From Acidobacteriota bacterium (lineage in GTDB: Bacteria > Acidobacteriota > Terriglobia > Bryobacterales > UBA6623): a stretch of 64,000 nt of DNA. The DNA lies in assembly GCA_016125275.1 (NCBI GenBank), contig WGMB01000005.1, forward strand, positions 253,001-317,000. Direction: 5' to 3'. The position numbers and the translations under genes are program-made. Positions 3,004 through 41,242 of the stretch are shown in pieces. Under the pieces are notes generated by a model. It had not been told where the DNA came from, did no database searches, and saw nothing but the letters and a program-made list of their open reading frames with translations. Position 1 is the first letter of the stretch, and each line of letters begins with the position of its first letter.

Positions 3004-3531
3004 CTAGAGTCCCAGCTTCTTGGCGGTCTTACCGTCCAGCAAGCCCGTCACCGGCAAGCCTTCGTCTTGTTGGAAGCGGCGCAGCCCCGCTTCGGTCTGC
3101 GATCCTGGGATGCCGTCGATAGCGCCGTCGTAGTAGCCCTTGGCCTGCAGCTTCTTCTGCGCCTTCACCACGCGCGCGCCGCGGGCATCCTCATCGCCCG
3201 GGTCGTCGTCGCCGAAGAAGTGGGCGATCGCCTTACCGGTCGTCTTGGCCGCCTCAGCGGTCTTCTTGCCTGCCGTGGTCGCGCCGCGGCTGGTGTGCTC
3301 CACGGCTTCGCCCACGCCTACGCCGGTCCCGTCCAGGCCTGCCTCCACGCCCTTGCCGGCGGCCTTCATGCCTTTCTCGGCGCCGTCGCCGGCCTTTTCG
3401 AGCGCTTCCTTCGTCGCCTCGCCGGCCTTGTCGTGGGCGTCGGGCTTCTTGTTGTCCTTGGCAAATGTCGCTGATGGCGCGGCCGCCAGGGCCATCGCCA
3501 GCACGAGGGTTGAGCAAATTCGGTTCATCAT
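3004..3531 (-). CDS. secreted peptidoglycan-binding domain protein
   Basis: A 175-residue protein with an N-terminal signal peptide (MMNRICSTLVLAMALAAAPSATFA). A low-complexity Lys/Ala/Gly-rich helical middle follows (about residues 30-110), then a C-terminal PG_binding_1 domain (VKAQKKLQAKGYYDGAIDGI, then GLRRFQQDEGLPVTG, ending at LDGKTAKKLGL). The domain usually anchors proteins to the cell wall. No catalytic domain is present, so this is probably an envelope linker or structural protein. A GGAGG-type ribosome site precedes ATG 3531. The stop codon lies 48 bp from the tRNA 5' end, outside the likely mobile element. Confidence 0.85.
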   Translation of the reverse strand: MMNRICSTLVLAMALAAAPSATFAKDNKKPDAHDKAGEATKEALEKAGDGAEKGMKAAGKGVEAGLDGTGVGVGEAVEHTSRGATTAGKKTAEAAKTTGKAIAHFFGDDDPGDEDARGARVVKAQKKLQAKGYYDGAIDGIPGSQTEAGLRRFQQDEGLPVTGLLDGKTAKKLGL

Positions 3532-3583: not shown

Positions 3584-3799
3584 CTAGCGCCGACTCAGCC
3601 AGCCGAACAACAGGCTGAGCACAACACTCAGTAGGATCGATGTGGCAATCGGCGCATAGACGACCGTGTGCTTTCCGCGCCAGACGAAATCTCCCGGCAG
3701 CCGAAACGGTCGCCATCCGAGCTGGCTCAGCAGTATCAGCAGCAAGCCCGCTGCGGCCGTCGCCAAGCCGGCTACGACCAGAAACTTGCCGACGCCCAT
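3584..3799 (-). CDS. small membrane protein, DUF2905 family
   Basis: A 71-residue protein with two transmembrane helices: residues 5-25 (FLVVAGLATAAAGLLLILLS) and about 50-68 (PIATSILLSVVLSLLFGWL). They are separated by a conserved-looking RLPGDFVWRGKHTVVYAPIATS segment that matches the DUF2905 pattern as I know it. Function is unknown for the family. It lies 52 bp upstream of the peptidoglycan-binding gene on the same strand and may be cotranscribed with it. Confidence 0.8.
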   Translation of the reverse strand: MGVGKFLVVAGLATAAAGLLLILLSQLGWRPFRLPGDFVWRGKHTVVYAPIATSILLSVVLSLLFGWLSRR

Positions 3800-3986
3800 G
3801 CCGCTCAGCGTACCTCATGGGCGCGAGTTTGAACGGGCGCTGGGTCCGCGATCTCACTTCCGGAAGATGCTTCGCCGAAGTGCATCGTTACAGGGCGATC
3901 TGCCGGACGAGGTCTCGTCTCCGTCAATCGATAACGAGGTGGACATACCGCCGAATAAAATTTTTTGAGGCGAGCTCTTTTTGAGA

Positions 3987-4013
3987 TTGACAAACCGCGT
4001 TTCGTGTTAATAG
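3987..4013 (+). promoter_or_regulatory. candidate promoter of the TonB receptor leader
   Basis: TTGACA at 3987-3992 is followed after 15 bp by TAATAG at 4008-4013. The spacer is shorter than ideal. The surrounding 60 bp is AT-rich compared with the rest of the window. Three GTAAC units (4016, 4021, 4030) follow directly. The stretch 3800-4343 holds no protein gene; it contains this promoter, tandem repeats and a structured leader. Confidence 0.4.
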
Positions 4014-4038
4014 TTGTAACGTAACGATTGTAACCAAA

Positions 4039-4070
4039 CGAACCCGAGGGCTCGCGAACCCACGGGCTCG
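4039..4070. repeat. two tandem 16-bp imperfect palindromes, operator-like
   Basis: CGAACCCGAGGGCTCG (4039-4054) is followed with no gap by CGAACCCACGGGCTCG (4055-4070), 14 of 16 bases identical. Each unit is itself an imperfect dyad. They sit just downstream of the candidate promoter, where a repressor would bind. The cognate regulator is unknown. Confidence 0.5.
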
Positions 4071-4092
4071 GTTGTGTTGCAAGCGTTCCATA

Positions 4093-4245
4093 GAGCTGAA
4101 GCTCGCAGGTTCTTTGCGCTGATCTGTCACGGGGAAGTGACACGCTCGCGGGAGCTTTCTCCGCGAGCGGCGGAGCGTCGGACCCGATCCCGACGCGGCA
4201 TTTCAGCAGACGTCTTCATCCTCCGGGGGCTTTCTCGCGCCCCCG
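4093..4245 (+). promoter_or_regulatory. structured 5' leader with five hairpins upstream of a TonB receptor
   Basis: Five hairpins with perfect stems follow one another. They are 4093-4104 (4 bp, loop TGAA), 4125-4142 (TGTCAC/GTGACA, loop GGGGAA), 4143-4169 (CGCTCGCGG/CCGCGAGCG), 4175-4196 (GCGTCGG/CCGACGC) and 4224-4245 (CGGGGGC/GCCCCCG). Hairpins three and five share GCTTTCTC at the loop. The last stem ends 98 nt before the receptor start. No T-tract follows any stem, so these are not simple terminators. I do not recognise a known riboswitch; a cis-regulatory RNA or small RNA is possible. Confidence 0.5.
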
Positions 4246-4343
4246 CGAATGCGTTTCTTTCGGCCAGCCCGGTTGGGCGTGGTCCTGCGATAGCTGTGCT
4301 CAATAGGTGGTCCCATCACTGGGATTGGGAGGGAGAAAACGTG

Positions 4344-7300
4344 ATGCATTTTGTCCGAATCAGGGGCGTACTCTTATCCGCTGCGCTCCTTGCAGCTCTT
4401 GTCTTTGTGCCAGGCGGCGCGATCTGGGCCCAGGAAACGACCGGCGTCATTACGGGAGTCGTCACCGACCCCTCCGGTTCGTTCGTTCCTGGCGCGGACG
4501 TGACTCTCATCAACCAGGGAACGAACGTGGAGGTCGAGGCGAAGACCGGGGAAACGGGTGTCTTCGTCGTGCGCGAGCTGGTTCCCGGCCGGTACATGGT
4601 CGTCTTCGAGGCGCCGGGCTTCAAGCGCCAGGAGGTTCCCGACACTCTTCTGCTCGCCGGGAACACGCTCCGCGTCAACGCGACCCTGGAGCTCGGCGAT
4701 GTGACCGAAACGATTGTCGTCTCCGAAGGCGCCGTGCTCATCGACACGGGCAGCACGATGGTGGCGCAGAACATCACTTCGGAAGAGTTCACCCTGCTGC
4801 CGAAGAACCGCACGTTCATCGGGTCGGCCATCCTGTCGCCCTCGGTCAATACGGGCGAGCTCGAAGGCGGCTACCAGATCAACGGCGCCAGCGGCGCGGA
4901 GAACAACTACTACATCGACGGCGTTTCGGTGACCAGCGTCATCAACGGCAGCGCCCGCCAGGGGGCCCAGTTCGAGTACATCCAGGAGGTCCAGGTCAAG
5001 ACCAACGGTCTGGAAGCCGAGTACGGCGGCGCGTTGGGCGGCGTGGTCAGCGCCATTACTAAGTCCGGCGGCAACGAGTTCCACGGCCACTTGCACTCTT
5101 ACTACTACGGCAACGCCATCGCAGCCGGACCGGTCAAGCGCCTGGAGCTCAATCCGGCCGACCAGGCGACGATGAAGTACATCCAGGACGACAAGCAGTC
5201 CAACAACAACTATGAGTTCGGCGGCTCGCTCGGCGGTCCGATCGTCAAGAACAAGCTGTTCTTCTACACCGCCGCCACGCCGCGCTGGCAACGCCGCACC
5301 AACCAGTACCTGTTCAGCAACGGGACCGAACCCGGCGAGATGAGCCGCAAGCTCTACCAGCTCAACTGGTTCAACAAGGTCAACTTCAACCCGACCGACC
5401 GTATTCGCACGACCTTCACGTGGCTCTACACGCCGACGCATCTGGAGGGCTCGCTGTTCTCCTACACCGGCTTCGAGCCCAACACCAGCGCCACGTCGCT
5501 GGCCACCGCCCAGGCCAATGCCAACAACGGCTACAACCAGCCGGAACAGAGCTATACCGGGCAGGTGGACTTGTCCCTCAGCAGCACCTCGATGTTGACC
5601 ATCAAGGGCGGCCGCTACTACCTCAACTACAAGGAAATCGGCATCGAGGATTCGTCCTCCTACTGGTTCATCACGCCGTCCATCGGCGTCGACGGCGTGC
5701 CGCCGGCGCTGCAACAGGCCGCCGGCTTCACCTCGCCGAGCGCCGCCCAAACGGTGTTCGACAAGACGACCCGCACCTACATCCAGGCCGACTTCAGCAA
5801 GTTCTTCAACTTCCTCGGCCAGCACAGCATCAAAGCCGGCATTGGAACTCAGAAGAACGTCAACAGCGTTCTCTCCACCGACTACGGCGTGGACGGCCGC
5901 GTGCGCGTCTTCTGGGATTCGGCGTTCCGCGGCGACCGCGGCCAGTACGGCTACTACCTCGTGGAGGACGGCGGCACGATCGGCTCCACCGGCGCCCACC
6001 TCGACAACATGTACATCCAGGACCAGTGGCGCGTGCTGCCGCGGTTGACGTTGAGCCTGGGCCTGCGGACGGAGCGGGAGACGATCCCGTCGTTCCGCCG
6101 CGACGTGCAGGACATCGCCTTCAAGTTCGGCTTCCAAGACAAGCTGTCGCCGCGCCTCGGCGCCAGTTGGGACGTCCTGGGCAACGGCAAGGTCAAGGTT
6201 TCCGGCTTCTGGGGCCGCTTCTACGACTGGACCAAGTACGACTTGGCGCGCGGCACCTTCGGCGGCCAGAAGTGGAACATCTACTACCGTTCCCTGGACT
6301 CGCTGGCGCCCTTTGTCGACCCCGGCGATCCCAAGACCTGGACCATCAATCTGAACAACATGCCCGGCCGCAACTTGTGGACCACGGGCGAGTACCGCGA
6401 CCTGCGCATCCCCGGCTTCGATCTGCTGGACCCGAACGTCAAGCCGATGAGCGCGGACATGGTGCACCTCGGCGTGGAGTGGGAGGTGGCCCGCCAGACG
6501 ATCTTCACCGCCCGCTATGCCCGCAACCACCTCAACCGGACCATCGAGGACCTCGGCGCTCTCGATGACGGCGGCAACGAGGTCTACTACTACGGCAACC
6601 CGGGAGAAGGACGGTTCAAGATCTTCCCCGCTTCCGGCGCCACCTGCGTGGTGGAAGTCAGCGGCGCCTGCGGCTTCCCGATGCCCAAGGCGACGCGCGA
6701 CTACAACGCCATGGTGCTGCAGCTCAGCCGCCGCTATCAAAACGGCTGGTTCGGAACCATCAGCTACGTCTACAGCAAGCTTTACGGCAACTATGCCGGG
6801 CTGCAGTCCACCGATGAGATCCGCGCTCCCACCATCGGCTCCTCGTTCAGCGGCGACCAGCAGTTCGGCGGGCAGAGCTACCGGCCGGGCGGCAACGCCA
6901 ACCGCTACTTCGACCTCGACGAGATCCTCTATGACGCGCACGGCAACGTCGGCAACGAGGGGCGCCTGCCCACTGACCGGCCGCACGTGGTGAAGCTGTA
7001 CGGCGGCAAGAACTTCAAGTTCGGGACCGAGATCGGCGGCTTCTTCCGCGCCATGAGCGGCACGCCGGTCACCACGCAGGTTTGGACCGTCAACAACATT
7101 CCGGTCTACGTGGAAGGGCGCGGCGACGCAGGCCGCACGCCGTTCTTCACGCAGACGGACCTGATGGTGGCCCACACCTTCAGCCTGGGAGAGACCAAGA
7201 AGCTGCGCTTCGAGTTCAACCTCGACAATCTGTTCATCCAGAAGACGTCGATGTTCCAGTTCCAGGACTACAACAAGCAGGAGCGCGGCGACTCGTCCGA

Positions 7301-7460
7301 GATCAACCTGATCAACACGGACTTGTCGAAGGGCTTCGACTGGCAGCAGATGGTGGCGAACACGAGCGACGGCTCGTTCGCGGTCGACCCTCGCTATCTG
7401 CAAAGCGCCTTGTTCAACCCGGGCTTCTCGGGCCGCTTCCTCGTCAAGTTCATCTTCTGA
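4344..7460 (+). CDS. TonB-dependent receptor, Oar-like, full length
   Basis: A 1038-residue outer-membrane receptor. It has a signal peptide (residues 1-26, ending AIWAQ), a carboxypeptidase-regulatory-like domain at about 28-115 (TTGVITGVVTDPSGSFVPGA), and a plug at about 140-240 (NNYYIDGVSVTSVINGSARQ, SAITKSGGNEFHGH). A large aromatic-rich barrel follows and ends in a terminal Phe (GRFLVKFIF), the usual outer-membrane insertion signal. ATG 4344 is chosen for the GGGAGGGAG ribosome site just upstream and the signal peptide; a GTG at 4341 is equally possible. The energy for uptake would come from the ExbB/ExbD/TonB-type system, for which the tol cluster at 10227 is one candidate. The substrate is unknown. 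Expression may be set by the structured leader. Confidence 0.93.
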   Translation: MHFVRIRGVLLSAALLAALVFVPGGAIWAQETTGVITGVVTDPSGSFVPGADVTLINQGTNVEVEAKTGETGVFVVRELVPGRYMVVFEAPGFKRQEVPDTLLLAGNTLRVNATLELGDVTETIVVSEGAVLIDTGSTMVAQNITSEEFTLLPKNRTFIGSAILSPSVNTGELEGGYQINGASGAENNYYIDGVSVTSVINGSARQGAQFEYIQEVQVKTNGLEAEYGGALGGVVSAITKSGGNEFHGHLHSYYYGNAIAAGPVKRLELNPADQATMKYIQDDKQSNNNYEFGGSLGGPIVKNKLFFYTAATPRWQRRTNQYLFSNGTEPGEMSRKLYQLNWFNKVNFNPTDRIRTTFTWLYTPTHLEGSLFSYTGFEPNTSATSLATAQANANNGYNQPEQSYTGQVDLSLSSTSMLTIKGGRYYLNYKEIGIEDSSSYWFITPSIGVDGVPPALQQAAGFTSPSAAQTVFDKTTRTYIQADFSKFFNFLGQHSIKAGIGTQKNVNSVLSTDYGVDGRVRVFWDSAFRGDRGQYGYYLVEDGGTIGSTGAHLDNMYIQDQWRVLPRLTLSLGLRTERETIPSFRRDVQDIAFKFGFQDKLSPRLGASWDVLGNGKVKVSGFWGRFYDWTKYDLARGTFGGQKWNIYYRSLDSLAPFVDPGDPKTWTINLNNMPGRNLWTTGEYRDLRIPGFDLLDPNVKPMSADMVHLGVEWEVARQTIFTARYARNHLNRTIEDLGALDDGGNEVYYYGNPGEGRFKIFPASGATCVVEVSGACGFPMPKATRDYNAMVLQLSRRYQNGWFGTISYVYSKLYGNYAGLQSTDEIRAPTIGSSFSGDQQFGGQSYRPGGNANRYFDLDEILYDAHGNVGNEGRLPTDRPHVVKLYGGKNFKFGTEIGGFFRAMSGTPVTTQVWTVNNIPVYVEGRGDAGRTPFFTQTDLMVAHTFSLGETKKLRFEFNLDNLFIQKTSMFQFQDYNKQERGDSSEINLINTDLSKGFDWQQMVANTSDGSFAVDPRYLQSALFNPGFSGRFLVKFIF

Positions 7461-38557: not shown

Positions 38558-41242
38558 ATGCTGTGGATCGGACCGCCGGGGAGCGGGAAAACCACACTCT
38601 GCCTCGAACGCCTGCAAACCGCCCTCCGGCAAGGGCGCGCGGCCGAAGTTCGTCTCGTCACCCCGACCGCCAGCATGGCGCAGCACCTGCTGCATGAGCT
38701 GGCGCGCCGCGGGCTGACCGTTCCTGGCGACCTGATCCTCTCGCTCGACGAGCTGCTCGGGCGGCTCGTCCCCGAAGCGAAAACCCCTTCGGCGGCCGAG
38801 GCCGACTGGCTGCTGGACCGCGCCGTCGAGCAAGGAGCCGCGGACTTCTTCGGCGCCTTGGCCCGGACCAACGGCATTCGGCGGCGCTTGGCGCAGACGG
38901 TCCAGGAGCTGCAAACGGCTCGTTGCGACCCGGAGAGATTCGCGGGCTTGGCCGAGGATGCGCGCGGCCGAGCGGTGGCCGCCGTCTACAAGCTCTATGA
39001 AGCCTTTGTGCGCTCCTGGGGGCTGGTTTCGCCTGCGGAACGGCTGACGCTGGCGGCCCAGAAAGTCGCCATCGAAGGCCCCGGCGCCATTCGCCAGATC
39101 GACTTCGACGGCTTCGTGCACCTTTCCCCCGGCGAGCGCGACCTGATGCAGTCGCTGGCCGTGGGCGGCGCCGACGTGCTGGTGACCTTGCTGGAGGAGC
39201 CGCCCGCGGGCTCGTTTCCGCGCATGGAGCGCCGGCGCCTGGCCGAAGTGCGTCGGCCTCGCGTCACGCCGGAGGTGGTCTGCGCCGTGGGCGTGGAGCA
39301 GGAGGTGGAGGAGATCGCCCGGCGGATCCTCGAGCTGCGCCGCCGGACCAACCGCCCCTTCCACAGCTTCGGCGTGCTGCTGCGCTCGACCGAGCTCTAC
39401 CAGGCGACCATCCGGACCGTCTTCGAGGGCCTCGGCATCCCGTACCGGCTGCGCCGGCCGCAACCGCTCAGCGCGCACGCCGTCGGCCGCTTCGCCCTCG
39501 AGTTGCTGCGCGCCGCGGCGGAGGGCTTTCCGGGCGAGCCTACTTTGGACGCCCTGCGGATGACTCCCTGTAAGGTCGCGGGCGGCGAGTCGGACCGTTG
39601 GGACTTTGCGGTTCGCGGGCGCTTGCCTTGCGAGGGGCTGGAGTCGCTCCGCGCCGACGCGCCGCAGCCGGTGGTCGAAGCGCTCGACGGTCTCGAATCC
39701 GCGGCTGACTGGCGAACCGAACGCGCCACGGCCCGCGAATGGCGCGCCCGTTGCGAAAAGACCGTGCGGGCGCTGCTGCGCCGCCCGGCGGCTCCGGACG
39801 GCCTGGCGCCGGAGGCCGTGCTGGAGCTGCGGGCCCACGCCGAGGCCGTTCGACGCCTCGTGGCCGCCTTGGAAGAAGCCAAGGCGCTGCTCGAGCGCGG
39901 CGGCGTGGAGAAGATCCGCCTTTCGCGGTTCCTGGACGTCTTCGAGCGGGTGCTGGAGCTCACCGACCTGCCCGTCAGCGACTCTCGCCGGGACGTGGTG
40001 AACGTCATCAACCTCTACGAGGCGCGGCAATGGGAGCTCCCCTATGTCTTCGCGCCCGGCTTGGTCGAGGGCTGGTTCCCCAAGGCCGTGCAGGAGGATC
40101 TGCTGCTGCCGGACGCGCAGCGCAAGAAGCTGCGCCGCGTCGGCGTGGAGGTCCGCACGCGGGCCGAAGCGGTCGCCGAGGAAGAGTTCCTCTATCGCAT
40201 CGCGGTCACTCGGGCGACCGAAAGTCTGGTGCTGAGCCGCCCGGCCGCGGACGCCGGAGGCGCTCCGCTGTTGCGGTCCTTCCTATTGCCGCCGGAAGCC
40301 GGCTCGGACCGCCCGGCCGTCGGGGGCAAAGCGCTGAGGCCGGCCGCCGCGCCGGCTCCGCCTTGCGCCGAGATCGTCGACCCGCGGCTGCGGCAGTGGA
40401 TCGGCGACAACCACCAGACCTTCAGCCCCTCCGGCGTCGACCGCTACCTGCAGTGCCCCTACCTGTTCTTCGGCGACCGCACGTTGCGCTTGCAGGGGCC
40501 GCCGCAGAAGGCCTCCGAAAGGCTCGATCCGCTCTGGAAGGGATCGATCATCCATGAGGTCGTCGCGCGTTGGAGCGCTTCCGGCCACGCACCCATCGAG
40601 GCGATCCTCACCGAGATCTTCGACGCCAAGCTCGCCGAAGCCGACGTGCCGCCCAGCTTCCACACCGAGCTGCTCAAGGCCATGATGGCCCGGGACCTCG
40701 AGCGTTTCGCCGCCCAGCCGGGAGCGCGCTCGGTCGAAGCCGGCGCGGCCCACGAATCCGACATCCGCTACGTGGTCGACCTGGGCGAAGGGGCTTCGTA
40801 CGAGATCAAGGGACGCATCGACCGCTACGAGGTTCTCGAAGGCGAGGCGGCGGTCGTCATCGACTACAAATATTCACGGGCCGACCGCATCAACAAGTTG
40901 CGGGCGCAGCACGAGAAGGGCGACGCCGTCCAGCTCTTGCTCTACTTGCGCGGCCTGGCGCTCCAGGGGCTGAAACCCGGCGGAGCCCTCTTGTGGGCGC
41001 TGCGCAAGGACGCCGCCCTGGCCGGTTGGGCCGTCGAGTCGCTCTACGAGCGTTTCGACTTGGGCAAACAGGTCAGTCGGCAAACCCCAGAACAGCTCGC
41101 CGGCTTGCTCGAGCAGGCCGAGCGGACGACCGCCGAAGCCGTGCGCGCCATCCGCGCCGGCCGCATCGAGGCCGCGCCGCTCGATCGCGACTACTGCGGA
41201 AGGTTCTGCGACTACCGCAGCCTCTGCCGGGTGCAACTGTGA
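38558..41242 (+). CDS. addB: AddB-like helicase-nuclease subunit
   Basis: An 894-residue UvrD-like protein with a C-terminal PD-(D/E)XK nuclease. Walker A is GPPGSGKTT at residues 5-13. The nuclease region has YEIKGRIDRYEVLEG and VVIDYKYSRA. Four Cys fit an Fe-S cluster: YLQCPYLFF and the C-terminal CGRFCDYRSLC. With the next gene it would process double-strand breaks for RecA, like AddAB or AdnAB. It is shorter than Bacillus AddB. It begins 3 nt after the GGT-like gene and ends in a GTGA overlap with addA. Confidence 0.88.
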   Translation: MLWIGPPGSGKTTLCLERLQTALRQGRAAEVRLVTPTASMAQHLLHELARRGLTVPGDLILSLDELLGRLVPEAKTPSAAEADWLLDRAVEQGAADFFGALARTNGIRRRLAQTVQELQTARCDPERFAGLAEDARGRAVAAVYKLYEAFVRSWGLVSPAERLTLAAQKVAIEGPGAIRQIDFDGFVHLSPGERDLMQSLAVGGADVLVTLLEEPPAGSFPRMERRRLAEVRRPRVTPEVVCAVGVEQEVEEIARRILELRRRTNRPFHSFGVLLRSTELYQATIRTVFEGLGIPYRLRRPQPLSAHAVGRFALELLRAAAEGFPGEPTLDALRMTPCKVAGGESDRWDFAVRGRLPCEGLESLRADAPQPVVEALDGLESAADWRTERATAREWRARCEKTVRALLRRPAAPDGLAPEAVLELRAHAEAVRRLVAALEEAKALLERGGVEKIRLSRFLDVFERVLELTDLPVSDSRRDVVNVINLYEARQWELPYVFAPGLVEGWFPKAVQEDLLLPDAQRKKLRRVGVEVRTRAEAVAEEEFLYRIAVTRATESLVLSRPAADAGGAPLLRSFLLPPEAGSDRPAVGGKALRPAAAPAPPCAEIVDPRLRQWIGDNHQTFSPSGVDRYLQCPYLFFGDRTLRLQGPPQKASERLDPLWKGSIIHEVVARWSASGHAPIEAILTEIFDAKLAEADVPPSFHTELLKAMMARDLERFAAQPGARSVEAGAAHESDIRYVVDLGEGASYEIKGRIDRYEVLEGEAAVVIDYKYSRADRINKLRAQHEKGDAVQLLLYLRGLALQGLKPGGALLWALRKDAALAGWAVESLYERFDLGKQVSRQTPEQLAGLLEQAERTTAEAVRAIRAGRIEAAPLDRDYCGRFCDYRSLCRVQL

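Follow-up and report, generated by a model that had tools for sequence, protein, structure and literature searches.

Genomic context of the receptor leader

The window, by which we mean the whole 64-kb stretch of DNA that was analyzed, carries at positions 4344-7460 (+ strand) a gene for a 1038-aa Oar-like TonB-dependent receptor. The protein combines a signal peptide, a CarboxypepD_reg domain and an outer-membrane barrel; PF13620 and PF25183 score above the cut-off, and the plug domain PF07715 scores below it. The two small genes upstream lie on the - strand and encode a DUF2905 protein (3584-3799) and a peptidoglycan-binding protein (3004-3531). Because the upstream gene is divergent, a terminator is not expected between it and the receptor. 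At a distance of 3 kb upstream, the left end of the window cuts a second Oar-like receptor gene, which is encoded on the opposite strand (1-1325, - strand). Further, a tyrosine-recombinase-like gene (1653-2825, + strand) adjoins a tRNA-Gly gene (2881-2955, - strand), and the pair resembles the remnant or the end of an integrated element.

A sigma-70-like promoter, TTGACA-16-AATAGT, is predicted at 3987-4014 (+ strand). It matches 10 of 12 consensus bases and is the only site of such quality in 3800-4500, where 0.1 would be expected in the 700 nt scanned. We infer that transcription starts near 4021. The receptor would then have a leader of ~323 nt, which is long: leaders predicted for its sister genes have a median length of ~91 nt, a value confined to the detectable range of up to 380 nt. 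The purine-rich ribosome site GGGAGGGAG is located at 4327-4335 (+ strand). Two pairs of direct repeats follow the promoter at the inferred start (4014-4070): two abutting 14-nt repeats, TTGTAACGTAACGA and TTGTAACCAAACGA (4014-4041, + strand), which span it, and two tandem 16-nt repeats (4039-4070).

The original prediction had drawn attention to positions 4093-4245 as the 5' untranslated region of a TonB receptor. The predicted promoter upstream, the divergent upstream gene and the Pfam matches of the receptor bear this out, and 4093-4245 is probably the middle of the untranslated mRNA leader. The stretch was also correctly described as free of protein genes: an open frame, 4074-4343, runs in-frame into the receptor. 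The signal peptide begins at ATG 4344, a start codon with a ribosome site of its own, and an N-terminal extension of the receptor by this frame was rejected for that reason.

A dense array of hairpins in the predicted leader

Five perfect hairpins are found on the + strand, with positions and stem lengths exactly as predicted. Hairpin 1 (4093-4104) has a stem of 4 bp and a loop of 4 nt; hairpin 2 (4125-4142) a stem of 6 bp and a loop of 6 nt; hairpin 3 (4143-4169), which directly abuts hairpin 2 at 4142/4143, a stem of 9 bp and a loop of 9 nt; and hairpins 4 (4175-4196) and 5 (4224-4245) each have a stem of 7 bp and a loop of 8 nt. The motif GCTTTCTC recurs, as had been noticed, at two of the hairpins (4154-4161 and 4229-4236), each copy lying within a 13-nt direct repeat that is identical at 12 of 13 positions. 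Two additional hairpins complete the predicted fold: an imperfect first hairpin at 4023-4087 (+ strand), which starts 2-3 nt past the inferred transcription start and holds the tandem 16-nt repeats, and a 5-bp hairpin at 4311-4324 (+ strand) just 5' of the ribosome site. No intrinsic terminator or attenuator, that is, a G+C-rich stem followed by a T run, is present within 4093-4245, in agreement with the reported lack of a T-tract.

The claim that this density exceeds chance also withstood analysis. The 153 nt contain four perfect hairpins whose stems measure 6 bp or longer, whereas 3000 dinucleotide shuffles contained 0.53 on average (P ~0.0007; fewer than 0.1% of shuffles reached four), and none of the 3000 matched the total of stem base pairs. 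When a 153-nt frame was moved along the 64 kb, only 3 of 6385 placements reached that total. The stretch is the densest spot of perfect stems in the window; its near-equal rival is coding DNA at 39711-39913. The folding energy of 4093-4245 is only moderately unusual (z -2.2, + strand). A fold of the wider region 4014-4343, which had been proposed as a check, is likewise moderately unusual on the + strand (z -2.7); since the opposite strand folds at z -3.6, energy leaves the strand undecided.

Searches for homologous leaders

A riboswitch-like or sRNA function had been proposed for these hairpins. Over the whole window, Rfam recognized only the tRNA, a low-threshold search gave nothing of note, and no covariance match in the leader reached the gathering score of an Rfam family. 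No second copy of the leader was found in its own genome, and an interspersed repeat was rejected on this ground. A covariance model built from the single sequence 4093-4245 matched itself at 198 bits, and no other match in 61 genomes, all from outside the genus, exceeded 20.2 bits. The same model returned nothing convincing from 73 paralog and ortholog sources or from 46 further ortholog loci. When the leader was searched as DNA against 60 related genomes, the short matches were judged to be chance, those inspected lying in coding sequence.

Orthologs of the receptor are up to 64% identical, and many come from Bryobacterales or Bryobacteraceae, so that the window probably belongs to this order of Acidobacteriota or to its vicinity; a protein search with the receptor alone found no relative in the named genomes, and an alignment recovered them. 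No sequence is common to the leader and the leaders of these orthologs, so the comparison does not support conservation as a riboswitch or sRNA at any depth that genomes from outside the genus allow. Homologous leaders, whose absence together with that of compensatory changes was to refute that reading, were found neither in the 61 genomes nor beside orthologs. TonB-receptor genes can carry a structured leader in the form of the cobalamin riboswitch (Rfam). The present leader shares the structured character, but differs in having no Rfam match, no conserved core and no homologous leader.

A regulatory RNA private to the species, responding to a ligand, an sRNA or a protein such as CsrA and tuning this receptor alone, has against it that the leader shows no Rfam relative, no covariance homolog and no sequence shared with orthologs, and we consider it quite improbable. 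It would fit the observations that, among 48 orthologs, this leader is the most hairpin-rich (29 bp of perfect stem), and that GCTTTCTC recurs at two hairpins. CsrA in particular is suggested by GGA at three hairpins and at the ribosome site, as in CsrA-regulated leaders, together with a csrA gene in the genome. Unlike in CsrA targets, however, GGA occurs as often as composition predicts (7 versus 5.9 expected), and the single A-N-GGA lies at the ribosome site; the leader thus shows no excess of GGA or A-N-GGA. The paralog leaders are not enriched in GGA either, and CsrA was rejected as a family-wide regulator for this reason. The genome has a single csrA match (L362, G000:C15:201609-201755); ~0.7 kb away, the opposite strand encodes a receptor (C15:200042-200947).

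Hairpins are enriched in the leaders of sister receptors

The genome contains ~100 matches to the window receptor. We compared the leaders of 90 sister receptors with 97 control leaders, which belong to other genes within 464 kb of this genome, and counted perfect stems (6 bp or longer, loop 3-12 nt) relative to shuffles. The comparison was not planned beforehand; the gene calls come from a seeded codon model of simple design, and starts and promoters are predictions. In the last 200 nt before the start codon, receptor leaders contain 2.6 times as many hairpins as shuffles, compared with 1.2 times for other genes and 1.0 for coding DNA; past about -110, the receptor value takes in terminators of the gene ahead where receptors form arrays. 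Within -80 to -1, a perfect hairpin is present in 40 of 90 receptor leaders (44%), versus 14.5 in shuffles (16%) and 21 of 97 other genes (22%; P = 0.0007). The difference persists among genes with an ATG start and a ribosome site (27/61 receptors versus 6/31 others, P = 0.015). Hairpins peak at -25 to -50, with 26 in receptors where 5.6 are expected and 5 in other genes where 7.1 are expected. Receptor leaders of this genome therefore show a family-wide hairpin tendency of modest strength, of which we found no earlier report in the literature searched.

The hairpins of different sister genes are unrelated in sequence, and most of them leave the ribosome site free. Their onset gathers near predicted transcription starts (24 versus 11.8 by permutation) and they tend to stay off the core promoter (9 overlaps versus 16.5 expected), a distribution consistent with a function in the RNA. 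The same clustering near starts could also reflect DNA operators, with each receptor controlled by its own dimeric regulator through a palindromic site around and just past the start of transcription. Such sites would account for every locus having its own unrelated repeat, mostly perfect and devoid of G-U pairs, for full palindromes in some paralogs (for example GACGATCTGTTATAACAGATCGTC in L147) and for the 14- and 16-nt direct repeats at the start of the window leader. We nevertheless regard operators as unlikely. The repeats avoid the core promoter, five different ones in one leader would require several regulators, and no regulator gene adjoins the window receptor. Moreover, palindromes without a loop are overrepresented ahead of receptor and other genes alike, whereas the excess specific to receptors concerns loops of 3-12 nt and does not extend to loops of 13-20 nt. 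An 11-mer at the transcription start, GTAACGTAACG, was rejected as a shared operator: it recurs at two other loci only, both downstream of the receptor start.

Other properties of the sister leaders sit less well with a role of RNA structure. Both strands fold equally well, and the excess of G-U pairs is barely above that of A-C, so that neither strand is favored. There is no excess of one-mismatch repeats, only of perfect ones, a pattern that selection on RNA structure predicts poorly. The hairpins might instead be a functionless by-product, new inverted repeats arising from copying errors in intergenic DNA and later drifting away. This reading, which is doubtful but the least so among the alternatives, agrees with the confinement of the excess to perfect repeats, with the lack of conservation of the leader in any relative compared and with a milder hairpin excess (ratio ~1.5) in other intergenic DNA of the genome. 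What it leaves unexplained is that the excess is centered on one gene family and on one distance from the start codon, while other leaders show none.

A second genome reproduces the tendency only in part. In G059, from another family of the order, the excess over 200 nt is 2.56 for receptors and 1.19 for other genes, but over the final 80 nt there is no significant difference from other genes and the hairpins show no tie to predicted transcription starts. The excess is weaker in G006, from the same family (1.7, n = 29).

A possible structure-dependent role of the leader stem-loops

To rationalize these observations, we favor, with a probability of about 40%, a long structured receptor leader whose hairpins would work as double strand rather than as specific sequence, shielding the mRNA and freeing the ribosome site. 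The stems would retard degradation that sets in at the 5' part of the message through RNase E/G-type attack, and they would hold the ribosome site clear of competing structure. A gene for RNase E/G is present in the genome. This proposal presupposes a transcription start near 4021 and hairpins that form in RNA and affect stability or translation. Our best guess is that the window locus represents the extreme case among receptor leaders. Operators, a private regulatory RNA and the absence of function would each be compatible with the sequence data as well.

The leader of E. coli ompA is the classical case of a stabilizing stem-loop. Leaders of the ompA type have stem-loops in an untranslated region upstream of a free ribosome site, as predicted here, and ompA, like the window receptor, encodes an outer-membrane protein. 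The present leader differs in its length of ~323 nt, its six or more hairpins and its origin in a different phylum. Leader stem-loops are also reported to stabilize several other bacterial mRNAs, for example recA of Acinetobacter and vacA of Helicobacter (PMC7509114).

Acidobacteria are abundant in soil and have very large sets of TonB receptors, and we found nothing on the post-transcriptional control of these sets in the literature searched. Bryobacterales, with ~100 or more Oar-like receptors each, might mark their receptor mRNAs by short leader stem-loops whose place is kept and whose sequence is free, although we would call this generalization speculative and rather unlikely to hold. If it did, the output of all these receptors could be governed by a single general factor, either an RNase or a protein that binds structure, and the window leader would be the most elaborate example of a marked message. 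A family-wide habit of this kind, with no shared sequence, would evade covariance searches; it would provide an easily tested way into the question of how ~100 similar outer-membrane messages are handled by one cell.

With respect to the ribosome sites themselves, a GGGG-type site (for example AGGGGGT) precedes 32% of receptor genes and 5% of others, a contrast that is overstated by a start picker that favored such sites more in receptors than in controls; examples from the genome of the window (G000) are L013, L020, L021, L025, L028 and L106. Dense hairpins also occur before at least one gene that is not recognized as a receptor: the leader L130, in the 400-kb control block (C14:153451-153916), equals the window leader in density, with 4-5 perfect hairpins in 200-466 nt.
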